64,000 nucleotides of DNA. Source: Oscillospiraceae bacterium. Its GTDB lineage: Bacteria > Bacillota > Clostridia > Oscillospirales > Oscillospiraceae. A program made the position numbers and the translations under genes. A model generated the notes under the pieces. That model had not been told where the DNA came from. It worked only from the letters and a program-made list of their open reading frames with translations, and searched no databases. Below are positions 429 through 54,716 of the stretch, piece after piece; within the stretch, counting starts at the first letter, position 1; every line of letters starts with the position of its first letter. The stretch lies in assembly GCA_017458065.1 (NCBI GenBank), contig JAFTGD010000026.1, positions 1 to 64,000 on the forward strand. Direction: 5' to 3'.

Positions 429-2093
429 TCACACTCTCACTGTAATCCCCGCCTTAAACCGGACCTCAAACCCCGCATTCAGCACCGTCACCTTGTCTAC
501 GTACCGGATAACCAGGTCGTTGTCAAACCGCGTGATCACATCCCCGTCCATCAGGCCATCAGGCAGCTGATGGGCAGTCCTTCGAAAGAAATCTTCATAC
601 CGTTTGCACTCCGGCGGCCACTCCCGTTCCTTCCGCTCTTTCCCGGCCATCTGATCCAGCAGCTCCAGCAGGAACCGGATCTGCAGCTCCTGTCCGGCGA
701 ATTCGGCCCGTTCCAGAACCAGCCCTTTTCTCTCATTCTGGCACCGTTCAATCTCGGCTTTCAGGAACTTGATCTCATCCTCATCTCCGTCCGCGTCGGC
801 CTGCACCTTCCGCTCTTCCAGCAGCGTCTCCATCTCCAGCGACTGCTCCATCAGCGCGTCAATGCGCTTCAGCTCTCCGGTCTTCATCTCAGCCTGCATG
901 CGGATCAGCTCTTCCCGGTACTCCGGCAGAAGGTTGAAGGCTTCAACGATGGCGTTCTGCGCTTCTTCCTCCGTGACGACCCGGCAGCCGCACCGGCTTC
1001 TTTGGCTTCCCCGTGTGGAGATCGCCTCACCGGTCTGGTACCGGCACCGCCATTCCACCAGTTCGCCGCGCTGGACGCGCTTAAGAGGACGGTGGCAATT
1101 CGGGCACATCAGCCGCCGATTCAGCGCCCTCGTCGAGCCGAAACGGATCTTGGTGGGATCGTTCTTCAGCGCCCCTCTTCTCATCAGCTCGCCCTGCGTC
1201 TGGAAGTACAGCTCCTTCGGCACGATGGGCGGATGATGGTCTTCCACGTAGTACTGCGGGAGTTCCCCTTTGTTCTTAACGGTCTTGTGAGTAATGAAAT
1301 CCGGCACGTAGTACTTCTGGAGCAGCATATCGCCGCAGTACTTCTCATTTTCCAAAATGCTGCTGATGCTTGAAGCGTAGTACTGGCCTTCGCCGCTGGG
1401 CGTTTTCACACCTTCATCGTTCAGGTGATTCGCGATCATGGCGGGGCTGTAGCCTTCCAGAAACTCCCTGTAGATTCGGCGCACCACCTCAGCCTGCTCC
1501 GGGTTTATGACGTACTCCCCGTGTTTTTCTCCAAGCTCAAGGCCTAAGAATTTGGAAGTGTTCAGGCGTCCGACGCCGTTCTGCATCTGGTACCAGATCC
1601 CCATGCGGGTGTTCTGGGAAATGGACTGGCTCTCCTGCTGCGCGAGGCTGGACATGATGGTCAGGAGAAGCTCGCCGGTTGTTTCCAGGGTGTTGATTTT
1701 CTCCTTCTCGAAAATCACGGGGATTTTGAGTTCCTTCAGCTTTCGGATGTACAGAAGGCTTTCGAGGGTGTTTCTGGCCCAGCGGCTGATCGATTTGACG
1801 ATGATCTGGTCGATGCGCCCTTTCTCGCAATCCTCGATCATCCGCTGGAATTCCGGTCTCTTCTTCGCCTGCGTCCCGCTGATTGCGTCGTCAGCGTACA
1901 TCCCAGCGAACTCCCATTCAGGATTGCCTTTGATGAACTTGGTGTAGTAATCGATCTGCGCCTCGTAGGAATCCTCCTGCGCCGGATCGTCTGTGCTTAC
2001 CCTTGCGTATGCCGCGACACGCAGTTTGTCACGCTGCTGCTGGGGCTCCGGATGGGATGTGGATCTTGTCGCTTTGATCACTTTTACCGCCAT
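429..2093 (-). CDS. Large serine recombinase (554 aa)
   Basis: This is a site-specific DNA recombinase of the large serine family, the type that integrates and excises phages and conjugative elements. The resolvase catalytic domain begins near residue 24 with YARVST, and the nucleophile is Ser33. Conserved active-site stretches follow (SISRWARNT, later SSLAQQESQSIS). The recombinase domain spans about 185-300, a zinc ribbon about 330-375 (CPNC, then a CGC cluster), and a charged coiled coil about 400-470. I chose the ATG at 2093 because AAGGAG lies 8 nt upstream. It is the last gene of a three-gene recombinase cluster with 2158-2559 and 2556-4172. Which of the two full-length enzymes integrates the prophage cannot be read from the sequence. 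Confidence 0.95.
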   Translation of the reverse strand: MAVKVIKATRSTSHPEPQQQRDKLRVAAYARVSTDDPAQEDSYEAQIDYYTKFIKGNPEWEFAGMYADDAISGTQAKKRPEFQRMIEDCEKGRIDQIIVKSISRWARNTLESLLYIRKLKELKIPVIFEKEKINTLETTGELLLTIMSSLAQQESQSISQNTRMGIWYQMQNGVGRLNTSKFLGLELGEKHGEYVINPEQAEVVRRIYREFLEGYSPAMIANHLNDEGVKTPSGEGQYYASSISSILENEKYCGDMLLQKYYVPDFITHKTVKNKGELPQYYVEDHHPPIVPKELYFQTQGELMRRGALKNDPTKIRFGSTRALNRRLMCPNCHRPLKRVQRGELVEWRCRYQTGEAISTRGSQRSRCGCRVVTEEEAQNAIVEAFNLLPEYREELIRMQAEMKTGELKRIDALMEQSLEMETLLEERKVQADADGDEDEIKFLKAEIERCQNERKGLVLERAEFAGQELQIRFLLELLDQMAGKERKEREWPPECKRYEDFFRRTAHQLPDGLMDGDVITRFDNDLVIRYVDKVTVLNAGFEVRFKAGITVRV

Positions 2094-2157
2094 GATCGTT
2101 TCTCCTTTTCTACCCGTCATGCGGGTGTGGTTTTCTACCCACGTTTCTGTGGGTGTT

Positions 2158-2559
2158 TTATTTTTTCGGCTGTATGCATTCGTACAGCCGGGATGCGCTT
2201 AAGTCCGGCGTTGCACCGGCGAAGGTGAAAGCGGTTCGTACCGGAACGACCCGGTACCTTGCCTCTCTCTCTCTGCTGTAGTTCTGGCCCCGTACTTCCG
2301 CTCTGGCCTTGGCCTTTTTCATCACATCGGGCTGGATGAGGCGCGGGTAAAAGTCTGTGCCGAGGTAGGTTTCGTTTGTGAGCATGTTCCGGCAGGTGGT
2401 CGGTGAGTGGTCGATTCCCGCAGCCTTTGCCGCCGCCCGGATGGAACAGCCGTCAAGGTAAAATGCGAAGAACCGCCGGAGCTTTTCGCTCTCCTCCGGA
2501 TGCGGGATCGCCGCGCCGTTTTCGATTTTGTACCCGTAGGGGATCATCGGTCTCTTCAT
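2158..2559 (-). CDS. Short recombinase-domain protein without catalytic domain (133 aa)
   Basis: The protein starts MKRPMIPYGYKIENG and runs into a region typical of the central 'recombinase' DNA-binding domain of large serine recombinases: PYGY, then a stretch on branching and accumulated residues, then NMLTNETYLGTDFYP. It has no N-terminal resolvase domain, no catalytic serine and no zinc ribbon. The ATG at 2559 overlaps the stop of the upstream recombinase as ATGA and has GGAGGAG upstream, so translation is coupled and the gene looks intact. It may be an accessory DNA-binding partner or directionality factor for the flanking recombinases. That role is inference. Confidence 0.75.
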   Translation of the reverse strand: MKRPMIPYGYKIENGAAIPHPEESEKLRRFFAFYLDGCSIRAAAKAAGIDHSPTTCRNMLTNETYLGTDFYPRLIQPDVMKKAKARAEVRGQNYSREREARYRVVPVRTAFTFAGATPDLSASRLYECIQPKK

Positions 2560-4172
2560 GCAGCGATCTCCTCCATGCTCTCCTTCAGCTCTAATCCGCA
2601 CGTAAAACGGAAGACCACACTCTCTCCCGGCGTGACCGCCACACTTTCCACCAGTTCCGCAAACGCGTCTTCCGGGAAAGCCCCGCCCTTCCAATGCGTC
2701 ACAAATTCCTTCAGCCGCTCGGCCTTGACCGTCCCGGTCGCGCAGGTGGCGAGCATCACTTTTTCCCGTCTCAGCGCGTCATTCTGCTTCAGGAGCTCCA
2801 TCTTCCTGGCATGCTCCTCCGGCGTGAAGTGGTTCACCAAAGCAATGGCTGTAAGCACGTCTGCCTGCAGCTGGTTATTTTCCAGTTCTTCATCAATCTC
2901 CCTCAGCCGTTCCACCGTCCGCGTTTCCTCGTCCAGGCTGTCGATGAACACATCCAGAACCCTTCTCTTCGGGCTCAGCGTCTGGCTGTAGGCCAGCTTG
3001 TTCAGGCAGGTGATGAAGGCGTTCTTCACATTCTCTTCAGGCTCAGCGCCGCAGCCGGAACACTCGTAAACGTGGTAACCCTTCCGGCTGGCCCGCTTCA
3101 TGGTGCGTCCGCAGTGTCCACAGATCAGCTTCCCGGACAGGGCGTGCTGTTTTCTGGGTTTCCCCGTCCGTTCTCTCTGCTTCACATTCCGTTCCGCCAG
3201 CTCGAAGGTCTCCCGGCTGATGATCGCCTCGTGATGGTTTTCATGGTAGAACTGATCCAGTTCACCCTTGTTGCGCTGGAACTTGAAGTTGTCATCCACG
3301 TAGTGTTTCTGGTACAGGACGTCACCCATGTACGCGGGGTTTTTGCAGATGTCTGAAACTGTGGAGAGCAGCCAGGGCGTGCCCCTCGGGCCGGGAATGC
3401 TCCGGGCGTTAAGCTCATCAGCGATGGCGGCAAAGCCGTAGCCGGACAGGACCATGCTGAAGATGTCCCTCACCACAGCCGCCTGCTCTTCATCAATGAC
3501 CAGGCTTCCGTTTTCTTTACGATACCCATAAGGCGCGATGGAATGTTTGAAGGTTCCGGTTTCAAACCGTTTCCGAATCGCCCACTTCCCGTTGGCGGAT
3601 ATAGAATGGCTCTCACTCTCGGCCATGCAGCTGAGAAGTGAGAGCATGAATTCGGACTCCATCGTCCCCGTGTCAATGTTTTCTTTTTCAAACCGGATGG
3701 TCACACCCAGAGCCGTCAGTCCCCGGACCATCGCGATGCAGTCTGAAGTGTTCCGGGAGAACCGGGAGATTGACTTCGTCAGGATCAGGTTGATCTTCCC
3801 GGCCCGGCAGTCCGCCAGCATCCGTTGCAGCTCAGGACGGCTTTCCGTCTTTGTGGCGCTCAGGCCTTGCTCGAAGTAGATGCCAGCGAGAATCCAATCC
3901 GGGTTTTCTCTGATGCAGCGTTCGTAGTGCCTGCGCTGCGCGTAGATGGAACCTTCCTGCGCCTCGTCCATTGTGGACACCCGGCAGTACGCCGCGACCT
4001 TCAGTTTCTCCTTGGTTTGCGTTTTCGTCGCAGCGATTTTCCGGATCTTCGGAGGCGCGGGCTTCTCAACCGCACGAGGGGTTGACGGAGGCTTGACGGG
4101 CTGCACGGTCATCCCGCGCACGAAGCCGAGATCAAGCCGGTTTTTAGCGTTAACCTGGGTAACTGTAGGCAT
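2556..4172 (-). CDS. Large serine recombinase (538 aa)
   Basis: A second full-length large serine recombinase. After a basic N-terminal extension of about 50 residues comes the resolvase domain, with nucleophile Ser66 in AYCRVST and the SISRFSRNTSD and MAESESHSIS stretches. A recombinase domain with PYGYRKENG follows near residue 210. The zinc ribbon is CGHCGRTMKR ... YECSGCG, then a long helical coiled coil. I start at the ATG at 4172 because AAGGAGG lies about 9 nt upstream. It is the first gene of the recombinase operon, and its stop overlaps the start of the short recombinase-domain protein. It is clearly divergent from the recombinase at 429-2093, so this is not a recent duplication. Confidence 0.95.
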   Translation of the reverse strand: MPTVTQVNAKNRLDLGFVRGMTVQPVKPPSTPRAVEKPAPPKIRKIAATKTQTKEKLKVAAYCRVSTMDEAQEGSIYAQRRHYERCIRENPDWILAGIYFEQGLSATKTESRPELQRMLADCRAGKINLILTKSISRFSRNTSDCIAMVRGLTALGVTIRFEKENIDTGTMESEFMLSLLSCMAESESHSISANGKWAIRKRFETGTFKHSIAPYGYRKENGSLVIDEEQAAVVRDIFSMVLSGYGFAAIADELNARSIPGPRGTPWLLSTVSDICKNPAYMGDVLYQKHYVDDNFKFQRNKGELDQFYHENHHEAIISRETFELAERNVKQRERTGKPRKQHALSGKLICGHCGRTMKRASRKGYHVYECSGCGAEPEENVKNAFITCLNKLAYSQTLSPKRRVLDVFIDSLDEETRTVERLREIDEELENNQLQADVLTAIALVNHFTPEEHARKMELLKQNDALRREKVMLATCATGTVKAERLKEFVTHWKGGAFPEDAFAELVESVAVTPGESVVFRFTCGLELKESMEEIAA

Positions 4173-4249
4173 TCGCAGCCCCTCCTTTCTGTCCCATGTT
4201 CGCTCTTTCACCTAAACTAATCAAGTTAATTCGACGCCGTGGAAGGTAG

Positions 4250-17205: not shown

Positions 17206-17894
17206 CTTGGCGTGATTTCAAGCTTCGTGATTCCGGTTCCCAGCACCACCACATTCTCTCCGGGCTTCAAGACCGGGAAATCTCCGACCGTCAGGACAAG
17301 CGTTCCGTTTCGGTTCTCCGCGCCATGGCAGGCATCCTGTAGGTCACAGTCGACATCGCAAAACTCATTGTTCTCCGTCAGCCGGAAACTGTTCTGCCCG
17401 ATGGTCACTTCCCCCGCGCCATATACGCGGATGAGGGGCTTTGAGGAAAACAGCGTGGGGTTATAGATGCTTCCGTTTTCTGTGAAAACAACAGCTCTCT
17501 CCCCCTGCTTCAGGAACTTCTGCGGCTTGCAGTTGAAGGTCAGATCGAATGTGCCGCTCTGATTCAAAGCGCCCAGCTGCGGATTCACGTCAGAAGCGAA
17601 TACCCCCATGCGGAAATGCTCCGGATGATAGCTGTCTTCCAGGCGGTGATAGCCCGGGTCTGACAGCAGAAAGTTCATCAGCCCTGAATATTTGAGAGGG
17701 AACCCTCTCTTTACACCGACATGGTATGTGATCTCCACATTGCTGAAGCGGTTGTTGCTTATGAGCAAATCACCGTTCCGGCCCGGGATAGATTTAAACT
17801 CCAGATCCGGAACGGCGGACTTCCAGACATCCTCGCCGGAGAGGACGAGTCCAAGGTCTCTGCTGTTTTTTCCGTTATAGATAAAGCGATGCAT
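17190..17894 (-). CDS. Distal tail protein Dit (234 aa)
   Basis: It forms the ring joining the tail tube to the tip. The pattern YNGKNSRDLGLVLSG ... SIPGRNGDLLISNNRFSNVEITYHV is typical of the siphovirus tail component/Dit family, as is the mid-region FDLTFNCKPQKFLKQGE. I chose the ATG at 17894 because GAGGAGGAG lies directly upstream. A longer in-frame reading overlaps the tape measure end and has no ribosome site. It lies between tape measure and Tal, the normal position. Confidence 0.9.
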   Translation of the reverse strand: MHRFIYNGKNSRDLGLVLSGEDVWKSAVPDLEFKSIPGRNGDLLISNNRFSNVEITYHVGVKRGFPLKYSGLMNFLLSDPGYHRLEDSYHPEHFRMGVFASDVNPQLGALNQSGTFDLTFNCKPQKFLKQGERAVVFTENGSIYNPTLFSSKPLIRVYGAGEVTIGQNSFRLTENNEFCDVDCDLQDACHGAENRNGTLVLTVGDFPVLKPGENVVVLGTGITKLEITPRWWCL

Positions 17895-17907
17895 GGCTCT
17901 CCTCCTC

Positions 17908-20900
17908 TCATGCCCACGCCGCCGTCTTTCTGGCGACTCCGAAATTAATGCGTTCTTCAATCTCATCTGCGAGGTCTTTGATGTTCTGGCCTTCCGCGCC
18001 GTACACATTTATCGTCACACCGCCGTAGTTGATGTTGGCAGCGGTATTGACGGCGGATACCGCTTTCTGTATCATCTGCATCAGGGACTGCGTGCCGACC
18101 ACAGCCTCAGGCCCCGCTTCTCCCGCGCCCAGCAGCCTGTTCCCCTGCATACCGAAGATCGTCGGATTGTTCAGGATCATGCCGCCCTCCATGGCCTTCT
18201 TATACCAGGACACAGAGAAATGCGGGATCGACGGCGGATTCAGGCTGAAAGATCCGGAAATGCTGAAATGCGGAAGAGCGATGTGCGGCAGGGACCATGT
18301 GAAATTGAAGAAGCTCTTCATGCGGTCGATGGCGTTTCGAACCGCATCCCTTGCCGCTTCAATTTTGGTGGTAATTCCAGATTTGATGTTCTCCCAGATC
18401 GTATCAGCCTTTGAGCTGATGCTGTCGAACACAGAGGAAATCTTGCTCTTCATCAGATCAGCCTTGGACGTCGCAGTTGACCGGATGCTCTCCCAGACGT
18501 TTTGCGTGGTAGACCGGATATTTCCCATCACAGTGCTTGTTCCGGACCGCAGGTTCTCCCACTTGTCCGAAACGCCGGTACGAATTCTTTCCACCAGCCC
18601 TGTGACGGTTTCCTTTGCATTATCCCATCCGGTGCTGAGCGTGTCTTTCACATTGCTCATCGCCCCGGATACGGTCTCCCTGATCGAAGCCCACTTTGTG
18701 GTAAAGAAGTCTGAGATTCCGGTCCATGTTGTTTCGAAGAAAGTCTTCACGCCAGTCCAGGCTGTCTCCCAGTCAAGACCGAACAGGCCAAGGAATCCGT
18801 CTGCTGCAGTCTTGATAAGCGTCGTGATAAACTCAAAATGTGATTTAATCGCATTCCATGCCCCAGAGAAGATTTCTCCAAGTCCAGTGTTCATACGTTC
18901 CCAGTCTCCGGTAAAGAGTCCGGCGAAAACATCGAAAACGCCCTTTATCGCCGTTAGAATTCCATCAAACACATCTTTGACCGGAGCGAAAACGGTCTCC
19001 AGTATGGGAGTCATGGTTTCCCATGTTGCCGTCCATTTTTCCTTCACGGACTCGCCGAAGGAATGGAACTTATTCTTGAGACTATCGACCTTCGCGCCGA
19101 TCTTCTCTTTCAGGCCAGAGATGTTCTCATGCATCTTTTCCCATGCATCAGACACTCTTTCCTTCATCCTGTCGACCGCGCCGCCGACCTTTTCCTTCAT
19201 GGCGTTCCATTTCTCGGATACCCATGCAGCCACCTTTGTAGCCGTCTCCTTGATCTTGTCCCAGTTTTTATAGAGAAGGATTCCAACCGCAATGACTGCG
19301 GCGATGGCAAGCGTCCACGGATTCATGAGTCCCATGACGATTCTAATCCCCCCGACCAGTTTCGGCACAAAGGTAAGAATCGAGCCAAGCCCCTTCATGA
19401 GCTTTCCGCCCACAACAAGAGCCGGGCCAACTGCCGCAGCTATACCCAGTATTCGGACGATCAGGTCTTTCGTGCCATTGTCCAGCGACATAAACTTGTC
19501 CACAGCCGCCTGAACCTTCTCGATCACAGGTGTCAGGTACTGAGCAGCCAGCTTGCCGAGGGTATACATCAGGACGTCGAGGGAAGATTTCAGTTTCTCG
19601 ATGGAGCCGCCGAAACCGCCCATCATGGCTTCCGCCATCTCGTCCGTTGTGCCTTTTGCATGCCCGAGACTGTCTGCCAGTTCCTCTACCTTTTCCGGCG
19701 CGGTATTGATCAGGGCGAGCCAGCTGCTCATGTTGTTCTTTCCAAAGATGGCGCTGGCTGCCGCGATCTGCTCCTTCTCCGAGAGCGTGGCGAAACTGTC
19801 ATGCAGGAGCTTCTGCACCTCGACGGAATCCTTCATGGTGCCGTCCGCGTTGAACACACTGATCCCCAGCTTGTCCAGCATCTCAGCGCCTTCTTTGGCG
19901 GGTTTGGCTAAACGGGCCATGCCTGTCTTCAGAGAGTTTGCGGCGGTACTTGCGTCCACACCGTTATTGGCCATGACGCCCATATACAGAGCCGCATCCT
20001 CTACGGAGTAGCCCGCAGCATGGAAGATAGGAGCCGCTACACTCATGGCGTCGGACAGGCTGTTCACATCCAGGGCTGAGTTGTTGCACGCAGCCGCAAA
20101 CACATCCGCGTATCGGGCCGCCTGATCAAAACCGTCCTGGAAACCGTTGATCGTAGCGACAAGTCCTGCGGAAACAGTGTCCAGGTTGCCACCTTCTCCA
20201 GCTGCCAGATTCATTGCCGGTGCGAGAGCCTGCGCTGCCTGCTCCGCATTAAGACCGGCGCGGGCGAAGTTCAGGACCGCGTTCGCAGCATCGGACATAC
20301 CATAGGTGGAGTTTGCTGCCGCCTTTGACATCGCCTGATCGAGCATCTCCGCCTCCTCAGCGGTGTTGCCCATGGTCTGGTTTGCCAGCGTCATGGTCTT
20401 GTCCACTTCGGCGAAGTTCTTCACCGCGACGGTACCGGCGGCGACGATCGGCGCGGTGACCTTCATGGTCAGGTCTTTTCCGGCCTGTTCCATTTTGCCG
20501 CCGAGTTCTTTCATCTTCTCGCCAACCACAGCGATCTGCTGCGCGGCGACAGAGCCGAAGTTTTTATACTCCTTCGTCAGGGATTTCAGCTTCTGCTCGG
20601 TCTCGACAATCTCCCGTTCCAAGGCGTCATACTTGTCCTGCCCGAGGGTGCCGTTCTCCAGCTGCTCCTTCGCCTGCTGCTGGGCCTGCTTCAGAGCGTC
20701 CAGCTTCTCTTTTGTCTCGTGGACAGCATCCTTCAAAAGGCGCTGTTTCTGGGCGAGAAGCTCCGTGTTGGATGGATCAAGCTTCAGAAGCCGGGAGACA
20801 TCCTTCAGCTGGGACTGGGTTTCCCGGATATTGGTATTTACTTGTTTCAGGGCTTTTTCCAGTCCTGTGGTGTCGCCGCCGATCTCGACGGTTATGCCCT

Positions 20901-26647: not shown

Positions 26648-29278
26648 CTATTCAAAAACAAGCAGACCGCGTGCATCATATACGCTGTCGCTTGTGTCGT
26701 TACCGCATCGGATCGCCCGGGCAAGCCCCATGATCAGCGCGACCGCGCCGTCGATCTTCTCGGTGCTTTTTTCCTTATCCGGCTTAATATTTCCGGCGGG
26801 ATCCATGCGGATATAAATGTTGTCCATCATCCAGCGCAGAACCGGCTGTCCGCCATGGGCGATCTTCTGCTCCAGCGTCAGGCGCATAAGGTCTTTTGTC
26901 GGATTGGACATGGAAGAGAAGCCCTGCCCGAAATCGACCATGGTGAAGCCCTCGTCCTCCAGGCGCTGCACCAGCGCCGAGGCATTCCAGCGGTCATAGG
27001 CTATTTCCCGAATGTTGTATTTCAGGCCGAGATTCTCAATAAACTGCTCGATATAGCCATAATGAACGACATTGCCCTCCGTGGTCATGATATGACCCTG
27101 TCTTTCCCATACGTCATAAGGCACATGATCTCGGCGGACCCGCAGATCCAGCGTCTCTTCCGGAAGCCAGAAGAAAGGGAGTATCTGATACCTGTCTTCA
27201 TCATCGGTCGGTGGAAACACCAGAACGAGCGCCGTGATGTCCGTCGTGGATGAGAGATCAAGCCCGGCGTAGCAGACGCGGCCTTCCAGGTCTTCCGGAT
27301 TGACCGGAAACGCGCAGGCGTCCCATTTATGCATTGGCATCCAGCGGACTGCCTGCTTCACCCATTGGTTCAGACGCAGCTGGCGGAAGGCATTTTCCTC
27401 ACCGGGATTCTGCTTCGCCGATTCGCACGCAGCCGCCACCTTGTCGATCCCAACCGTGATACCGAGGGACGGATTCGCTTTTGCCCACACTTTTGGGTCC
27501 GTCCAGTCTTCTGACTCGTCCGCGCCGTAAATGACAGAATAGAAGGTCGGATCGATCTTCCTCCCGGCCTGGATATCCAGCGCCTTCTGATGCACCTCAT
27601 AACAGATGCTGTTGGTGTCATTGCCGGCGGTCGTAATCAGGAAGTAGAGCGGTTGCATGCGAGCATCGCCGGAGCCTTGCAGCATGACATCAAACAGCTT
27701 CCTGGTCGGCTGCGTATGGAGCTCGTCAAAGATGACGCCGTGTGTATTGAAGCCATGCTTGTTCGCCACATCGGCGGAGAGCACCTGATAGAAGCTGTTG
27801 GTCGGCAGATAGATCAGTTTCTTCTGGGAGTCCAGAATCTTCACGCGTTTTGACAGTGCCGGAGAAAACCGGATCATGTCCTCTGCCACATCAAAGACGA
27901 TCTTCGCCTGATTTCGGTCTGCCGCGCAGCCATATACCTCAGCGCGTTCCTCTCCGTCGGCACAGAGCAGATACAGCGCGACCGCCGCGGCCAGTTCCGA
28001 ATTGTGCGTCGGTACCATGGACCTGCCTGCCAAATAGCAGTGGCTCCCGCTGTCGACCTGAATACATTGCATCGGCACCTTTTCTGTCAGTGGCTCAATG
28101 GACTGCAGGTAATGAAAGCAGGATCGCGTTTGCTTTTTCCTGCTCTTGTTATGCAGGGTTTTTCGAGCCAGCCTTGCGGTCGGCTGATCATCGAAGGTTG
28201 TAAACCGGATTGTATACAGGGTTTCCCCGGTTGGAATCCCATAGCGGGTAGATGCGGACAGTGTCATGGTGTTTTTGATACCGAGACTCCACAGCAGTTC
28301 CCGGACAGACTCCGCAAGCTGGCGGATTGTGCTGACATAGATGCTCTGGGACCGCACCGCCGAAATGCAGCCATCCGAATCCATCAGGCCCTGGAGCAAA
28401 GCCCATCTCTGCTGTTCAGACGCTCTTAGGTATTCCGGGAGAATTACCTTCTCGCGAAAGCTCTTCACAAGAATGGGTTTCAGTTCCTTATAGACCAGAA
28501 TGTAACTGCCTCCGCATGCCTGCGGATAGCATTTGTGCAACCGATACGGAACGTATGATTTCAGCCAGGGAACATCCTCATCCCGCACCGTCAGCTCCGG
28601 CTTTGTGGAGTTCCCGTTTCCGAGCCAGTAGCCGTAGGTGTACGGATCCAGCGGAAGCTCAGCAAATTCTGTCTGGAGCGGCTTTGCGACAGGAATCCGA
28701 ACTACAGACCGGGTGCGGTCTTTCACACGGTTCTTTATCTTCTGTTTCTCTGTCGCTGCGTATATCTCTTCCGTTGACATGATCTTATGCTGCGGGCTTC
28801 TCACGATATTGTCCACGTCCCACAGGTGTCTGGCTCCGGCAACGATGGAACTGCCGTCCCGGAAGGTCAGCCGGTATGCCTGTTCGGTGTCGTCGACTTC
28901 GGACTTGGCAACAACATGACAGGGACTGCCGTTTTCGTCGAACACGGTATCTCCAACCTTGAGATCACCCATGGAAGTGAAACCGTCCGGTGTCGGGATC
29001 GGAGTATCAAGCGCCAGCTGTTTCCCCATTTTTTTCGGAATCTCGACATAACAGGTGTTAAACTGGCGGTATCCGTTTGGTTTCAAAACGCCAAACACAT
29101 CCCGGATAATTCTCTCCTGCCAGTCGATCAGCTCGAATTTTTTCCCTGCCCAGGTTCCCTTCGTATGGCACAGCTGTTCAATAAAGGCCACCGCGAAGTC
29201 AGCGGCAGCCTTGTCGTAATGGGAGTCCTCCGCCATAAAGCGGGTAGGCACGTAATTCTTCAGTTTTCGCATTGCCAA
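26648..29278 (-). CDS. Terminase large subunit with intein (876 aa precursor, about 536 aa spliced)
   Basis: This is the ATP-driven DNA packaging motor and nuclease. The N-extein ends IPKKMGK and the C-extein begins SELAAAVALYLLC. Rejoined, they give a terminase Walker A (KKMGKSE), which the 340-residue intein splits. Walker B is VIFDELHTQP, with the coupling motif LITTAGND. The C-terminal nuclease has the acidic cluster CYAGLDLSSTTD and ... KSTEKIDGAVALIMGLARA. I start at a TTG (29278), 9 nt after AAGGAGG. The ATG at 29272 is the alternative. It lies directly upstream of portal and far from its small subunit, with the methylation genes in between. Confidence 0.93.
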   Translation of the reverse strand: MAMRKLKNYVPTRFMAEDSHYDKAAADFAVAFIEQLCHTKGTWAGKKFELIDWQERIIRDVFGVLKPNGYRQFNTCYVEIPKKMGKQLALDTPIPTPDGFTSMGDLKVGDTVFDENGSPCHVVAKSEVDDTEQAYRLTFRDGSSIVAGARHLWDVDNIVRSPQHKIMSTEEIYAATEKQKIKNRVKDRTRSVVRIPVAKPLQTEFAELPLDPYTYGYWLGNGNSTKPELTVRDEDVPWLKSYVPYRLHKCYPQACGGSYILVYKELKPILVKSFREKVILPEYLRASEQQRWALLQGLMDSDGCISAVRSQSIYVSTIRQLAESVRELLWSLGIKNTMTLSASTRYGIPTGETLYTIRFTTFDDQPTARLARKTLHNKSRKKQTRSCFHYLQSIEPLTEKVPMQCIQVDSGSHCYLAGRSMVPTHNSELAAAVALYLLCADGEERAEVYGCAADRNQAKIVFDVAEDMIRFSPALSKRVKILDSQKKLIYLPTNSFYQVLSADVANKHGFNTHGVIFDELHTQPTRKLFDVMLQGSGDARMQPLYFLITTAGNDTNSICYEVHQKALDIQAGRKIDPTFYSVIYGADESEDWTDPKVWAKANPSLGITVGIDKVAAACESAKQNPGEENAFRQLRLNQWVKQAVRWMPMHKWDACAFPVNPEDLEGRVCYAGLDLSSTTDITALVLVFPPTDDEDRYQILPFFWLPEETLDLRVRRDHVPYDVWERQGHIMTTEGNVVHYGYIEQFIENLGLKYNIREIAYDRWNASALVQRLEDEGFTMVDFGQGFSSMSNPTKDLMRLTLEQKIAHGGQPVLRWMMDNIYIRMDPAGNIKPDKEKSTEKIDGAVALIMGLARAIRCGNDTSDSVYDARGLLVFE
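28001..29020 (-). other. Intein in the terminase Walker A, class 3-like (340 aa)
   Basis: The intein begins QLALDTPIPTPDGFTSMGDLKVGD and ends SMVPTHN before Ser of the C-extein. The usual Cys1 or Ser1 is a Gln. The three class 3 marker residues are present: Trp67 (HLW), Cys319 (VPMQCIQVD, block F position 4) and Thr338 (PTHN). A LAGLIDADG-type homing endonuclease is embedded (about 125-290) with motifs TYGYWLGNGN and LLQGLMDSDG. The first has Asn where the catalytic acid is expected, so nuclease activity may be lost. Confidence 0.88.
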
Positions 29279-29384
29279 TGGCTTCAGCCTCCTTTCGGGC
29301 ATAAGAAATGCAGGCCTTTCGGTCTGCTCCACTACGAGGCACAGCCCCGCAGGGCTGGCTCTCGGCTATTCTCTTGTTTCCGGC

Positions 29385-49352: not shown

Positions 49353-49555
49353 AAAAAAGGTACGGAGAAACACTGCATTGAGCGGGCATATGATAAGCTT
49401 ATGGGTTCTGTAGTAACGCTGAAAACTGCTCAGGGGAAGCGAAACAAAATACAAAAGAAGCGTACTTGCAGGAGAACAAGGGAGAAAAGAGTAATCACCA
49501 TAAAGCTCGGCGAATTGTCCTTCAGGGAATTACAGGGGTCAACGAAAAGCAGCGT

Positions 49556-49789
49556 CTAAAAATGGCAGTAATTGACAAAGGAGTGTTCTGCGCGAACTCT
49601 GTCAATTACATGATGCCTCCGGAAGAGGACAAGAGATCCATATAGCCGTGTTAGTTTTTCCCACTCATTGCAAAAGGCCGGAATTTTGTCAAGTGTATTC
49701 AGATTCCTCGCACATGACTGTGATCGTTGAAGAAGTGCTCTGATATCATTTTTCTCGCTTGTAGAAGGTGATCTCTTAAAAAGGGCCAT
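49556..49789 (-). CDS. Small ORF or gene fragment (77 aa), unknown
   Basis: The ATG at 49789 has GAGGAGG 9 nt upstream, so it was probably once a real start. The first 50 residues (MALFKRSPSTSEKNDIRALLQRS ... EWEKLTRLYG) look like an N-terminal domain, while the end is basic and unstructured. It may be the 5' stub of a longer gene cut by the deletion that also truncated the restriction gene. The stretch 49353-49555 holds no gene I can support. Confidence 0.4.
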   Translation of the reverse strand: MALFKRSPSTSEKNDIRALLQRSQSCARNLNTLDKIPAFCNEWEKLTRLYGSLVLFRRHHVIDRVRAEHSFVNYCHF

Positions 49790-50110
49790 TAGATTAATCC
49801 TCCTCAGTAGTAAATCATTGACCTGATAATTATCTTTATTGATCAGCTTATATGTTCTTTATGTATTTGCAACTTGGGTATCTGCTGCAACCGTAAAACC
49901 AACTGCTTGCCGCACCAAGAGCTGATCACTGTGCTCTGATAGGATATTTTATCACATCATACTGCCTCCGTCTATAAGCATTCCGCCACACTCTCATCAC
50001 GCCAAACCCCCTATTCTCCTTACCTTCCCCCGATGCTCATTACCTCTTTCCGACACAAATCACGCACAAAAGAGGCTTGGAGCGCTTGGAAATAGGGAAT
50101 AGGGAGAGAA
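49790..50110. other. Intergenic stretch left of the pilin switch
   Basis: This 320-nt stretch is AT-rich and shows no ORF with a ribosome site. It contains no LPxTG-gene promoter or ribosome site reading into the left pilin. The bases just before the repeat at 50111 show no similarity to the sequence before the same repeat in the right pilin. Confidence 0.5.
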
Positions 50111-50133
50111 GGCTCTGGTAATGAGCATGGGAA
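50111..50133 (+). repeat. Inverted repeat, left arm of the proposed pilin inversion
   Basis: The 23 bp begin GGCTCTGGTAATGAGC and end ATGGGAA. They are identical, in the opposite orientation, to 54041-54063. Both copies encode the same part of the pilin signal peptide (ALVMSMG) in the same frame. Confidence 0.85.
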
Positions 50134-51602
50134 TCAGCGCTTTTGCTGAAACGAGCACCCCCAGCATTACGGTTGTACCAAACAACACAGCAGCCGACAC
50201 AGAGAGTCTGGCTATAAATTACACCTACTACCAGATTCTTGAAGCTTCTATTGACACAGATCCCGTTGTTGATCAGGCCACAGGTGCCGCAACCACAGCA
50301 GGTACTGTTGCCTACTACGTAACCACTGAGGATCGTGCCACTCAGCTGACCAATACCAACCTTTTCAATGTCACAAAGGTTGATGGACAGAATAAGTGGT
50401 ATGTGGAACTGAAGAGCACCGCTACAACAGCCCAGCAGATCATTGATGCATTTGAAGCAAACACGTTCGATCTGACCAAATTCCCTACTGGGACATTTGA
50501 TAAAACGGCAGCTGAAGCGCAGGCCGAGTCTGGAACACTTGCCGCTGGTTACTATTACATCACATCCTCTCTCGGCACGAAGGCTGCTGTTGAGACCTTG
50601 ACTGCGGTGACCATTAACGAGAAGAATACCTATCCTAGCAATACCAAGACAGATGATAAGGAGTATGCCGCTATTGATGACACTGTGACTTATACAGTTA
50701 CCGTGACAATTCCTGAGTCCGTTGCTTCCAAGCCCATCACCATCGTTGATACCATCACAGATGGCCTAACCCTGAACACTGCTGTTACAGTCACCGGTGC
50801 TGTGGAAGATCCTGCTTACACTTCTGCTACCTTTGTTGCGGGTACGCACACCGCTGGCACCGCTGGTACTCCTGCAGTTGAAGACGATCCTGAGACACCA
50901 GAGGATGAGAGTGCCGCAGCCGTTCCTGCCACCCAGGGTACCACAGTTTATACTCTCGAAATCCCTGCCGCCACTGTACTTGCCAACAAGGGCAAGACAC
51001 TGACCTTCACCTACACTGCTAAGGTCAATGAGAATGCCGTTGTTCTTGAGAAAGAGCACAACAAGGCCCACATCACCTACGACAACTTCACTACTGTTGA
51101 CGTTGATACCGATGTGACCACTCTGGCTTTCGATGTCCAGAAGGTTGACGGCACCGACAAGACTACTGTCCTTGCAGGCGCAGAATTCAAACTGTATGAT
51201 GCTGCAACTGAAGGAAACGAGATTCCTGTAGTTTTGAAAGAAGCTGCTTCTGATGCCAATGGACAGGTTTCCACTTACCGTGTTGCAAAAGATGGCGAGA
51301 CTGGCGTTGTCATGACAGGTGGAACCTTCCGTATTGAAGGTCTTGACAATAAGACCTACTACCTCGAAGAGACAAAGGCTCCGACAGGCTATAACAAACT
51401 CGAAACCCGCATTGAAGCTGCTGCTTCGACCTCAACTGCCCCTGCTACTAACATTGACTACAAAGTTGAAAACAATAAGGGAGCAACCCTCCCCTCCACT
51501 GGTGGCATTGGTACCACAATCTTCTACGTAGTCGGTAGCATCCTCGTAGTCGCCGCAGGCGTCCTGCTCATCACCAAGAAGCGTATGAGCAGAGAGGGAT
51601 AA
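50121..51602 (+). CDS. Silent pilin cassette: LPxTG isopeptide-forming pilin lacking promoter and signal start (493 aa)
   Basis: This is a cell-wall-anchored fimbrial subunit. Domains in order: a remnant signal peptide (MSMGISAFAE), an N-terminal fimbrial domain with YPSNTK at about 170, a middle isopeptide domain, and a SpaA-like domain (about 340-450; lysine in FDVQKVD, E-box YYLEETKAPTGYN). The end is LPSTGG, a hydrophobic helix and the charged tail KKRMSREG. The start codon lies inside what is a signal peptide in the partner gene, and there is no ribosome site or N-terminal MKK region. As it stands the gene should not yield a secreted pilin. Inversion at 50111/54041 would add 17 residues (MKKLTKLLGIVLIMALV) in frame. 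Confidence 0.85.
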   Translation: MSMGISAFAETSTPSITVVPNNTAADTESLAINYTYYQILEASIDTDPVVDQATGAATTAGTVAYYVTTEDRATQLTNTNLFNVTKVDGQNKWYVELKSTATTAQQIIDAFEANTFDLTKFPTGTFDKTAAEAQAESGTLAAGYYYITSSLGTKAAVETLTAVTINEKNTYPSNTKTDDKEYAAIDDTVTYTVTVTIPESVASKPITIVDTITDGLTLNTAVTVTGAVEDPAYTSATFVAGTHTAGTAGTPAVEDDPETPEDESAAAVPATQGTTVYTLEIPAATVLANKGKTLTFTYTAKVNENAVVLEKEHNKAHITYDNFTTVDVDTDVTTLAFDVQKVDGTDKTTVLAGAEFKLYDAATEGNEIPVVLKEAASDANGQVSTYRVAKDGETGVVMTGGTFRIEGLDNKTYYLEETKAPTGYNKLETRIEAAASTSTAPATNIDYKVENNKGATLPSTGGIGTTIFYVVGSILVVAAGVLLITKKRMSREG

Positions 51603-51631
51603 TCTCTACAGCATAACAACTTAACACAGCG

Positions 51632-51665
51632 AACTGGCTCCTTAATTGGGGCCAGTTTTATTTTA
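51632..51665 (+). terminator. Terminator of the left pilin gene
   Basis: A 10-bp stem AACTGGCTCC / GGGGCCAGTT (51632-51657) with a 6-nt loop is followed by TTATTTT. It lies 30 nt after the stop. So the silent cassette keeps a complete 3' end. Confidence 0.85.
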
Positions 51666-51755
51666 CCCACACCGGTGTGGTTATTATTTGAGAGTGGACG
51701 AGACTCCCGGCAACTTGCAGCAAGTTTCATCCAGTTGCAGCGACTCTCATCCACT

Positions 51756-51933
51756 TTCAAAACTACTTGGCATTACTACCTTCTGTGCTCCGGTCATGAG
51801 CGTGAAAAATGGATTTTCTCCGAAAAGTTCAGTGGATGATGTGGAATGGCGAGTTTCCAGTACTTTTCAGGATTTTTCACAAAACTCCTCAGCATCACTA
51901 CCTTCTACACTCCGGTTTTGAGTGTGAAAAATG
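51756..51933. repeat. Two diverged direct repeats of about 57 bp
   Basis: Copies at 51756-51811 and 51876-51933 share TTCA..AAACTNCTNNGCAT, ACTACCTTCT, CTCCGGT and GAG-GTGAAAAATG, with roughly 80% identity by eye and 120-bp spacing. They lie between the two pilin genes and show no ORF. Possibly remnants of duplicated 3' flanks or recombination sites. Confidence 0.5.
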
Positions 51934-51955
51934 CAGGCCCTTTGTTTGGACCTGC
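51925..51955 (-). terminator. Terminator of the interrupted small gene
   Basis: On the minus strand GCAGGTCC / GGGCCTGC (one G-U pair) is followed by ATTTTTC. It lies just past the stop at 51961. Confidence 0.65.
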
Positions 51956-51960
51956 ACAAT

Positions 51961-52257
51961 TCATTCATTCCATAATCTACTGATGTAACTATCCAGCTCA
52001 TTTACAAAGGAATCAATTTGTTGTTCTTCAGAATAATCTCTGCGGAATACATCCTCCCACCTGAGCAGAAAATTCTCCAGTTCAAGAGGATCGGCTTTTT
52101 TTCACAACGGGGCGAGGGCTAAGAGCGCTGCGTCAAATGGCTGTGATTCAAAATGGTCCGCATCAATAAAGCCGCCCATGCCTCCACGATCATGTAAACC
52201 ATAGACTCTGCAAACGATTCCTTCCAAAACAATAGCGTCATTATGACTGACTCTCAT
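51961..52257 (-). pseudogene. Small gene interrupted by an in-frame TGA (98 codons)
   Basis: The ATG at 52257 has AAGGAGG upstream. The frame reads MRVSHNDAIVLEGIVCRVYG ... ALLALAPL, meets TGA at 52102-52104, and continues in the same frame KKADPLELENFLLRWEDV ... YISRLWNE to a proper stop and terminator. The second half is well formed, so a single nonsense change is likely. A run of seven A residues directly after the TGA makes a sequencing or slippage explanation possible too. Family unknown. It lies inside the invertible segment. Confidence 0.6.
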
Positions 52258-52273
52258 GTAATCCTCCTTCTGT

Positions 52274-52305
52274 AGAAAAGAGAGCCAGCACGTAGCCAGC
52301 TCTCT
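52274..52305 (-). terminator. Terminator of the right pilin gene
   Basis: On the minus strand AGAGAGC / GCTCTCT (52279-52305) is followed by TTTTCTAC, 23 nt after the pilin stop. Confidence 0.7.
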
Positions 52306-52327
52306 AAGAATCTATTATGCTATTCGA

Positions 52328-54103
52328 TTATCCTTCGCGGGACATTCTCTTCTTGGTGATCAGGAGCACGCCAGCCGCAACGACCAGAATGGAGCCAACC
52401 ACATAGAAGATCGTGGTGCCGATGCCACCGGTGCTGGGAAGGACAGTGCCGGAGTTATTCTCAACCTTGTTGACCTGTTTGGCAGCAAGTTCAAGAGTAT
52501 GGTCAGCATCCGCGCTGGCATTTCCTGCGGTAATTCCAGAAGCCTCTGCGACCGTTACCTTGATGGTATTAACACTGGTTTTTTCTGCCTTGGTCGGAGT
52601 AAGAGAAACAGTACCACTGAGCAGGTTATAACCAGCTTCTGTTGCCGTTTCAGTGAGAGTATAGGTCTCATCCGGATCAAGACCATAGATAAGAATGATA
52701 CCGTTATGCTGCTTATCGGAAGTGACAGAGTTAGATTTTGATGCAGCATCAACTACATACACACCTTTGGTGCCGGAAGTTGCCTCAGAGACATTAACAG
52801 CATTACCCTTGCTATCGGTAAGGGCAAAGGTTGCCTCGAGATAAGCAATGGTCTTACCAGTTTTTGCTGACAGAGTATTTGCTTCTTCATCCAGATCAGC
52901 TGTTGCGCCGTCATACTTGATGATTGCTGCCGCGCCGATGTCAAACTCAACTGTATCCTCCTGATGATAGTTGCCGTAATCAATTTCTACATCATTTTTG
53001 CGATCGGTAGATACTAGGGCATCACTTGTGACTGTAGCTGCGAAAGTGAATGTAACGGTCTTTCCTTTCGTTGCTGCAGTCGGATGGATTGTTGCAGTCC
53101 AGCCAGTAGCAGTTTCACTACCAATTACATAATCCCGTTTACCGTCATCAGTAGCTGTAGCAGCAACATCTGCAGTAAGAGTCGGTGTAATGGTCAGAGC
53201 AGAGCCCGTTACCTCGCCCTCATCATCTTTCGGAATATTAAGTTCAAGACCCGTGCTCAGTGTATCTTTTACTACGATATCCTCAGTAGCATCCGCAGGA
53301 ACCTTAACCTCAACCTGATAGTAAACCGTGTCGCCAACTTTTACACCAAGAGCGTCATTAGAATAAGTTCCTGCAGTGTCGCCCTGCTTCTTGTCGACTG
53401 TCGGATAACTATTCTTTTCATTGATTGTAATGTCGGTAGTAGCAGCAACAAGGTTCTGACCTTCAGAGCTTCCGATCAGATAATAACCAGCAGGAACAGT
53501 AGCAGTCCACTTTGTGCTTGGAGTAGCAGGATTATCGCCTGAAGCAGCGGTTCCGTTGCCAGTTAAACTACCAGTGGCTTCCCAAACCTGATGGTCGAAA
53601 AGCCATTTAGCAGCTGCCTGTGCAGTGGCTGCATCAGTATTGGAATTAATCCACTTTACTGAATAATTTGTGGTTCCAGCAATCGGGGTCAGATCAAACC
53701 AGATGTTTCCAGTATCTGTCTCGTCATCTTCATCTGGTTCGGTCCTATTCCATGTGCTTGTGGTAGCATCCCAACTACCAAGCTTTGCAGCAACAGCGGA
53801 GCTAGCTGTATAGGCAAATGCTGTGGCAGCACCAGTTCCTGTGCTATCGTTGATAGTACCCGCAGTCCCGTCTGAATTGTACCCACCACCGGTAGCAGTA
53901 TGAGTGCCATTCATCGTTGCCGTGAATACACGATACCATGTAAACTCGCGATCACCTTCAGCCCCTGCACCGTAGGTGCTGTCACGGTTAACTGTAATGT
54001 TTACGGTTGGGGTCTCTTCGTCCGCCGCAAACGCTGCGGTTCCCATGCTCATTACCAGAGCCATAATGAGCACGATGCCTAGAAGTTTCGTGAGTTTCTT
54101 CAT
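52328..54103 (-). CDS. Expressed LPxTG isopeptide-forming pilin (591 aa)
   Basis: This is a fimbrial subunit exported by Sec and fixed to the wall or polymerised by a sortase. It has a complete signal peptide (MKKLTKLLGIVLIMALVMSMGTAAFA). An N-terminal domain follows with YPTVDKK (about 245), then isopeptide domains and a SpaA-like domain with E-box YTLTETATEAGYN. The end is LPSTGG, a hydrophobic helix and KKRMSREG. The ATG has GAAGGAG about 6 nt upstream. The C-terminal 35 residues are identical to the left pilin, but the DNA differs at about a quarter of positions. No sortase gene lies in the window. Confidence 0.93.
   Translation of the reverse strand: MKKLTKLLGIVLIMALVMSMGTAAFAADEETPTVNITVNRDSTYGAGAEGDREFTWYRVFTATMNGTHTATGGGYNSDGTAGTINDSTGTGAATAFAYTASSAVAAKLGSWDATTSTWNRTEPDEDDETDTGNIWFDLTPIAGTTNYSVKWINSNTDAATAQAAAKWLFDHQVWEATGSLTGNGTAASGDNPATPSTKWTATVPAGYYLIGSSEGQNLVAATTDITINEKNSYPTVDKKQGDTAGTYSNDALGVKVGDTVYYQVEVKVPADATEDIVVKDTLSTGLELNIPKDDEGEVTGSALTITPTLTADVAATATDDGKRDYVIGSETATGWTATIHPTAATKGKTVTFTFAATVTSDALVSTDRKNDVEIDYGNYHQEDTVEFDIGAAAIIKYDGATADLDEEANTLSAKTGKTIAYLEATFALTDSKGNAVNVSEATSGTKGVYVVDAASKSNSVTSDKQHNGIILIYGLDPDETYTLTETATEAGYNLLSGTVSLTPTKAEKTSVNTIKVTVAEASGITAGNASADADHTLELAAKQVNKVENNSGTVLPSTGGIGTTIFYVVGSILVVAAGVLLITKKRMSREG
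54041..54063 (-). repeat. Inverted repeat, right arm of the proposed pilin inversion
   Basis: Reads GGCTCTGGTAATGAGC...ATGGGAA on the minus strand, identical to 50111-50133. It lies in codons 14-22 of the expressed pilin. Promoter, ribosome site and the first 14 codons stay outside the 3.9-kb segment. Confidence 0.85.
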
Positions 54104-54267
54104 GTTCTTCTCCTTCTTCTTCGCCCTCTCGGGTCTTAATATGATTGTAGATTTTCCGCAGCCTTGGTTATTTTGCTCTCCTTAGCAGCGGAAGGAATAA
54201 TCTCCCACCCGGGAGGGAAATACGGTGTTGGTGCCGGGGTCTGATCTGTCGATCGGTTTATGTGCTG

Positions 54268-54297
54268 AGTATAGCAGAGCAAGAATCAATAAAACAA
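54268..54297 (-). promoter_or_regulatory. Promoter of the pilin locus
   Basis: On the minus strand TTGTTT (54292-54297) and TATACT (54268-54273) are spaced 18 nt. The transcript would carry a leader of about 155 nt to the pilin ATG. The leader contains a CTCCCGGGTGGGAG hairpin (near 54205), which may be a control element. The 54300-54700 stretch to the right holds no gene I can support, only AT-rich sequence and a GAGGCG / CGCCTC hairpin (54362-54383). Confidence 0.55.
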
Positions 54298-54716
54298 TCA
54301 ATAATCCGAACAAAACGCGGTATGATCAAAATTTTTTTGATGCTTTTTGATTTTCTGTTTTGAGGCGTAAAAAAAGCCGCCTCTCTCCGCTCATACATCG
54401 TGTATGTTAACATAAAAACCGTTATTCTGCAATAACAAAACGAAAACAATTCAGTTAATTTTTAAAATTATTTCTATGCAGTCCGACGCATCCTCTCGAT
54501 CTGTCTGGACAGAACCGAAGGATTCGTGTGTAACTATTCGTTTCCGATTTGTAATTTGCAGTATACTCCTGTTCTCAGCGTCTGTCAAGATTTTATACGG
54601 CGATTTTCACCATCAATTTTGCCTCACTGTCTTGGCTTTTTCCTTCTGGTATGGTAAACTCCCCTTTGTATCCTCGTTGCATTTCGATCAAAACAGAGCT
54701 GAAAGGAGCTATTACC

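Follow-up and report, generated by a model that had tools for sequence, protein, structure and literature searches.

Two convergent pilin genes of an Oscillospiraceae bacterium appear to be part of a cassette switch that determines the main subunit of a sortase-type pilus, in which a tyrosine integrase would exchange LPXTG pilin bodies behind one fixed expression site. They lie in a 64,000-nucleotide stretch of contig JAFTGD010000026.1 (assembly GCA_017458065.1; contig C83 below), the whole of which we call the window, and we put the probability of this reading at roughly 0.8. The expression site would hold the fixed 5′ part (leader, ribosome site, and start codon, with the first 14 signal-peptide codons). 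Everything downstream would come from silent cassettes without a start: the remaining signal peptide, including the A-x-A cleavage motif, then the mature pilin, and finally the LPSTG anchor. The integrase would pair the core of the copy with a start (ON) with the core of a copy without one (OFF) and exchange strands inside the part that they share. Where the sites are inverted, the intervening DNA would invert, which would leave the old body behind the OFF flank and bring the new one into frame with the fixed start, because all 11 bodies that we compared are open in the core's frame. The upstream flanks, which hold the distinction between ON and OFF, would stay put, so the products would again be one ON-type and one OFF-type site and the reaction could be repeated.

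A switch of this kind was first proposed from the window alone, and the features on which that initial annotation relied hold up. The 23-bp repeat GGCTCTGGTAATGAGCATGGGAA is present in two exact, inverted copies (Table 1); the window contains no further copy at ≤3 mismatches, and a match to the repeat occurred in 0 of 100 dinucleotide-preserving shuffles. The right open reading frame begins with MKKLTKLLGIVLIM followed by ALVMSMG. A complete signal peptide had been assigned to the right gene only, and the left one is preceded by an in-frame TAG, with no ATG, GTG, or TTG between this stop and the core. We also agree that the reading frames continue across the repeat. Stops in the left gene had been suggested as a check, and it is open throughout, with no decay of the kind seen in a pseudogene. 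Both proteins score above the cut-offs of PF16569, PF17802, PF00746, and TIGR04226 (isopeptide pilin domain, sorting signal), and the left body also exceeds the cut-off of the subfamily model NF033902 (104 vs. 95), which the right one does not reach (29.6). The two genes end in the same 35 residues, as had been noted, and 77/105 of the bases encoding them are identical (27% differ, the quarter or so that was first reported).

The pair is thus real, but a two-body switch, as originally envisaged, is too small: at least five silent bodies are present here rather than one, and ON and OFF sites are built differently. The genome (3.6 Mb, 83 contigs) holds five copies of the 23-mer at ≤3 mismatches and six exact copies of its 17-bp core, GCTCTGGTAATGAGCAT, each of which opens a pilin body. 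One of these bodies is ON, its core at 54061 being the sole copy with a start codon, and five are OFF. Four of the five silent bodies reach the same LPSTG anchor, and the one on contig C39 stops after 94 codons without it. The C39 body is cut by the apparent hairpin end of another element (L008 1–390), which we take to be of the IS200/IS605 type.

The same architecture recurs in related genomes. Among the named genomes the exact core occurs at 17 loci, of which five are pilin sites (L054, L058, L060, L062, and L064) in three genomes: G060 (JAFTFT010000029.1; RGIG3778, roe deer abomasum), G061 (CADBWQ010000006.1; RUG14376), and G062 (ONEU01000141.1; RUG248). G060 and G061, which are congeneric and which we equate with G120 and G114 of the genus search from identical coordinates and scores, each carry one ON and one OFF copy, inverted and 12.2 and 10.4 kb apart; a search of relatives had been recommended at the outset, and these pairs are its outcome. 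In G062 a single ON copy is accompanied only by likenesses with 3 mismatches, the reversed control likewise giving one of these on each strand. Over all 11 copies, an in-frame start lies 14 codons upstream of the core in 4/4 ON copies and is absent from 7/7 OFF copies, and all four ON copies read MKK(L/F)TKLLGIVLI(M/I) followed by ALVMS. The ON genes of G060 and the window have the same ABC-transporter-type neighbors (83% and 65% identity) and pilin bodies only 34% identical; the ON flank of G061 has neighbor genes different from the window's. The ON and OFF genes of G060 also have between them (L087, 6799–7476) what is left of the 3′ end of another pilin gene, again encoding this C-terminus; it is perhaps a decayed cassette.

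The remaining 12/17 exact-core loci were rejected as unrelated to pilins. At L055, L061, and L063, in three Clostridia genomes, one shared unrelated gene holds the exact core (ALVMSIVGILAVMG...) in its coding sequence, so the core alone is not diagnostic. Matches to a 22-bp form with 2–3 mismatches in G001 and G053, found among 60 genomes, were likewise set aside, being in the signal peptide of an unrelated protein and in part of an unrelated gene, and viral contigs gave 0 exact matches to the 22-mer.

The site is more conserved than the rest of the shared coding sequence, in line with the first suggestion that identical repeats next to diverged gene ends reflect preservation. Four core codons with synonymous alternatives do not vary in 11/11 copies, vs. 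5/30 such C-terminal codons (10 copies), and the core is conserved also in the OFF copies, where it is untranslated. The C-terminal 105 bases are 77–99/105 identical in the nine other copies compared (the G062 row, out of register by one codon, was dropped). The ON copy of all four genomes has the extended site TGCTCATTA-N9-TAATGAGCA, and nine-base arms of this kind appeared in 41/20,000 synonymous recodings of such a peptide (spacers of 5–12 allowed). Species differ at several, mostly silent, positions within the first eight ON codons, and GGCATCGTGCTCATTAT-K-GCTCTGGTAATGAGCATGGGAA (K = G or T) is invariant. OFF copies share only the right part of the ON site. Their flanks carry TTCCGTCACA (≤1 mismatch) at −62 to −64 in 6/7 cases and at −131 in 3/7; two further OFF flanks carry a version with 2 mismatches, at −127 and −128, and the OFF copy at C40:590 has a single copy, at −153. 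At ≤2 mismatches the motif is found in 0/4 ON flanks (that of G062 being only 61 bases). As it was read off these same flanks, some of them near-duplicates, the six are not independent cases. By analogy with the lambda-type fold of the candidate enzyme, we would guess at an accessory role or integrase binding for these motifs. Part of the repeat also recurs in inverted, arm-like form at 50030–50044 (CCGATGCTCATTACC).

Silent and expressed bodies are kin, and the silent ones are maintained. With signal peptide and anchor excluded, 43/55 pairs of the 11 bodies match at E 1e-3, mostly at 25–44% identity. The nearest match to the window's silent body is the body that G061 expresses (39% over 437), and the nearest to the silent body of G060 is the one that G062 expresses (44% over 480). 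The expressed body of the window is nearest to silent body C40:590 of its own genome (39% over 482), and the truncated C39 body is 68% identical to it over 72 residues. Judged by sequence, a body type expressed in one species is silent in another. In a tree of the 10/11 bodies that are complete (C39 left out), two ON/OFF sister pairs have strong support (99/99 and 97/97) and a third has 94/98; long end branches are flagged in three OFF rows, whose placement is unsure. The four ON rows require 4 state changes, vs. a mean of 3.3 for shuffled labels, so ON/OFF state is not clustered by body lineage. Three ON/OFF pairs have nonsynonymous divergence (dN) of 0.42–0.49 vs. synonymous divergence (dS) of 1.7–4.0, dS being saturated and the ratio therefore rough; the short C39 pair yielded no dS. 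The six complete silent bodies, 496–583 codons long, contain 0 stops, unlike pseudogenes of such divergence.

The likely enzyme is encoded outside the window. It was noted early that no recombinase lies within the invertible segment, and there is none among its open reading frames. As the source of the activity, a prophage serine recombinase or a host enzyme had been considered; the prophage enzymes are weak candidates, and we propose a lambda/Tn1549-type tyrosine integrase instead, whose gene stands beside an OFF cassette on contig C40. This integrase adjoins an OFF cassette in 3/3 genomes with OFF copies (own, G060, and G061), and of about 100 genomes in the genus the core occurs in three, which are also the three with the integrase; in the order and phylum searches up to four candidates per genome were scored, and copies may be missed. 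The protein scores above the cut-off of PF00589, and R244, K267, H325, R328, H351, and Y362, which we take to be the catalytic R-K-HxxR-H-Y set, are invariant in 3/3 and 13/13 sequences. A first structure model, built from three sequences, was poor (predicted local distance difference test score 41.6) and was not used. A second model, with 10/12 viral relatives included (L114 and L115 left out), has the predicted core-binding and catalytic fold of tyrosine recombinases, a comparison that concerns mainly residues 101–356. Its N-terminus is modeled as strands 14–17, 26–29, and 42–44 and a helix at 47–58; a full-length alignment to lambda Int spans 3–355, but with a root-mean-square deviation of 10.8, and no arm-domain family is among the 12 Pfam families listed at E ≤1.

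By sequence the integrase resembles those of [Ruminococcus] gnavus phages phiRg and Blautia phage Montmirail (42–43% identity over 99% of the recombinase; 7/18 matching phage records). The phage genes stand among other phage genes (repressor and lysis genes in phiRg507T2_3), whereas here the integrase stands beside pilin cassettes. Motifs of the TTCCGTCACA type have 8 matches in ~66 kb of the phage relatives, below the rate on C40 (10 in 30 kb). Fragments that share 78–80% identity with the integrase occur at G060:C19:14752–14931 and G061:C6:51128–51259 and may be what is left of additional copies. On C40 (L006), a toxin/antitoxin-like pair at 17288–17979 separates the integrase gene from the OFF 17125 cassette; its antitoxin-like protein is below NCBIfam cut-offs and its partner matches none.

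Several observations weigh against integrase-driven exchange. In the window's own genome the integrase is on another contig than the pair, and near the genes of 12 phage-type relatives the core is absent (best 4 mismatches, in one place). OFF copies are without most of the left 9-bp ON arm, the nearest exception being C40:590, which keeps most of it. The scatter of ON and OFF states over the tree is no greater than with shuffled labels, and slow exchange or cassette loss could also give it. By starting at an ATG within the core, OFF copies could still yield a product, one that lacks a signal peptide. Inversion in living cells is inferred from one genome per species. G062, a fragmentary assembly, yielded neither an OFF copy at 0–2 mismatches nor an integrase. 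The unrelated signal peptide of G001 matches the 22-mer with 2 mismatches, and codon preference may thus explain part of the conservation of the core. Finally, the ON gene and OFF 17125 are identical at 99/105 bases of their 3′ ends, so some homologous exchange or gene conversion is possible beside site-specific recombination.

This last pair would suit RecA-type gene conversion as in Neisseria pilE/pilS, in which silent copies act as donors via short homologies with no dedicated recombinase, as would the presence of one expressed gene and several start-less copies. We nevertheless regard this as an improbable account of the system as a whole, since the only identical 5′ tract is 17–23 bp, a length short for homologous exchange, and the 3′ ends of the window pair differ at more than a quarter of their bases. 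Moreover, ON and OFF flanks differ in kind and are conserved separately, and an integrase co-occurs with the core. That another enzyme acts on the repeat, either the large serine recombinases of the prophage (429–4211) or host Xer, is more improbable still: two such recombinases lie in the window, 46 kb from the left repeat, and the genome encodes ten PF07508 proteins, but none of the PF07508 proteins of G060 (3) and G061 (5) is near the pilin sites, and the tyrosine integrase is. We therefore set the prophage enzymes aside. We think it just as improbable that there is no active switch and that paralogues share a signal peptide by descent and codon preference, the left start having been lost through a prophage or element break; the G001 signal peptide and the lone ON copy of G062 would fit this, but one and the same base is the breakpoint of seven start-less copies from three species, the silent bodies remain open and under constraint, conservation of the core extends to where it is untranslated, and an integrase stands beside cassettes in three species.

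A shufflon-like exchange of pilins behind a constant promoter and signal-peptide start is thus favored by the architecture of relatives, the kinship of ON and OFF bodies, the intact silent bodies, and the conserved site. A bolder version of it, which we offer tentatively and consider rather doubtful, is that a domesticated phage integrase drives an open-ended pilin library, the symmetric ON site being attB-like and the OFF core, with two direct motifs, attP-like. Site identity would then reside on the immobile side, OFF × OFF reactions would be disfavored, and switching would be endless, unlike phage integration. Glycosyltransferase genes would travel with the pilin, and cassettes might also move as circles, which would explain the five silent bodies and the exchange of bodies between species. 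Glycosyltransferase and membrane-protein genes do follow the C40:590 OFF body (L006 2765–6416), and homologues of these C40 modification genes (42–80% identity) follow both G061 bodies (L088 6397–13003), so that inversion at these places would move modification genes too; none were seen in the window pair.

Table 1. Coordinates of the predicted switch in the window (contig C83) and of core copies on other contigs of the same genome
Feature	Position	Strand	Remarks
OFF-flank motif TTCCGCCACA	49981..49990	+	at −131, 1 mismatch to TTCCGTCACA
OFF-flank motif TTCCGACACA	50048..50057	+	at −64, 1 mismatch to TTCCGTCACA
In-frame TAG	50100..50102	+	three codons before OFF core
OFF recombination core (23-bp)	50111..50133	+	17-bp core 50112–50128
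OFF (silent) LPXTG pilin body	50112..51602	+	496 codons from core, no upstream start, A-x-A cleavage motif, LPSTG anchor
ON pilin gene	52328..54103	−	591 aa, complete signal peptide, LPSTG anchor
ON recombination core (23-bp)	54040..54062	−	
Extended ON site TGCTCATTA-N9-TAATGAGCA	54046..54072	−	9-bp inverted arms
Fixed first 14 signal-peptide codons (MKKLTKLLGIVLIM)	54062..54103	−	
TGCTATACT, extended −10-like	54268..54276	−	also upstream of G060 ON gene; promoter by likeness only, judged by eye
17-bp core copies, C83	50112, 54061	+, −	
17-bp core copies, C40	590, 13047, 17125	+, +, −	
17-bp core copy, C39	393	−	

Other features surround the pair. A promoter scan returned 9 sites, vs. 6.5 ± 2.5 in shuffles, and hence no excess; the promoter that had been assigned to the right gene alone is accordingly putative. 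The leader of the ON gene contains a short hairpin with CCCTCCCGGGTGGGAG at 54200–54221, which is also present in G060; Rfam had no match at gathering scores over 49500–54700, this hairpin included. Between the convergent genes, at 51758–51933, is a 54-bp imperfect direct repeat (81%) whose first copy contains a 3-mismatch likeness of the core at 51787. To the left, a prophage apparently fills the window to ~47 kb, as judged by eye from terminase-, portal-, capsid-, tail-, and endolysin-like open reading frames. The large serine recombinases are encoded at 429–2120 and 2556–4211, with a short recombinase-like open reading frame at 2158–2694, and the terminase-like frame at 26648–29332 (894 aa) has an apparent intein-like insert, seen by eye in the translation alone.

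If the switch operates as proposed, a commensal could swap its whole backbone pilin, retaining only the leader and 14 codons, and could choose among up to six bodies (one of the five silent ones being truncated). A phage-type integrase would have been turned into an enzyme that switches host genes, and the design of its sites would keep the reaction reversible. Sortase-assembled pili are one of the main attachment means of many Gram-positive bacteria, and adhesion or antigenicity may be affected. The reading names one enzyme, an exact site, and exact junctions.

Comparison with known systems places the switch closest to shufflons and multiple-inversion systems. The R64 shufflon (pilV, Rci) is alike in having alternative protein segments, one expressed join, short sites, and an invertase, and Rci is a tyrosine recombinase. 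Here, too, we find one expression site with several bodies, identical inverted sites (in C83, G060, and G061), and a linked recombinase. R64 swaps C-terminal segments, whereas here only the first 14 signal-peptide codons of an LPXTG pilin would stay the same. The cassettes are also spread over several contigs, and the nearest relatives of the enzyme are integrases of phages and of Tn1549. The sfx sites of R64 are called asymmetric (PMC11852207). Moraxella bovis (Piv) is alike in that inversion of a pilin gene causes pilin phase variation. Its pilins are type IV pilins and Piv is an enzyme of the IS110 kind, in contrast to the LPXTG pilins, tyrosine integrase, and more than two bodies here. In the inversion systems of Dichelobacter nodosus omp1, the Campylobacter fetus surface layer, and Mycoplasma vsa/vpma, multiple inversions shift expression among surface-protein genes, which there encode outer-membrane, S-layer, and lipoproteins and no LPXTG pilins.

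Nearer in taxonomy, the inverted segment of the Clostridioides difficile flagellar switch lies upstream of the genes that it controls, as does that of cwpV, whereas here whole pilin bodies would exchange. The RecV system of this species (cwpV, flagella) is otherwise alike, combining Clostridia, a tyrosine recombinase, inverted repeats, and surface structures (PMC5903667). Bifidobacterium breve, a gut commensal, also varies its sortase-dependent pili, but by replication slippage between ON and OFF with no exchange of bodies, and among the literature matches listed this is the only form of sortase-pilus phase variation (PMC9187656). Inversion between LPXTG pilin bodies was not reported among the full-text matches listed, which cover few subscription papers and are weak evidence of novelty. 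Taken together, these comparisons suggest a system that works like a shufflon or multiple-inversion system and that would be new in acting on LPXTG pilins.

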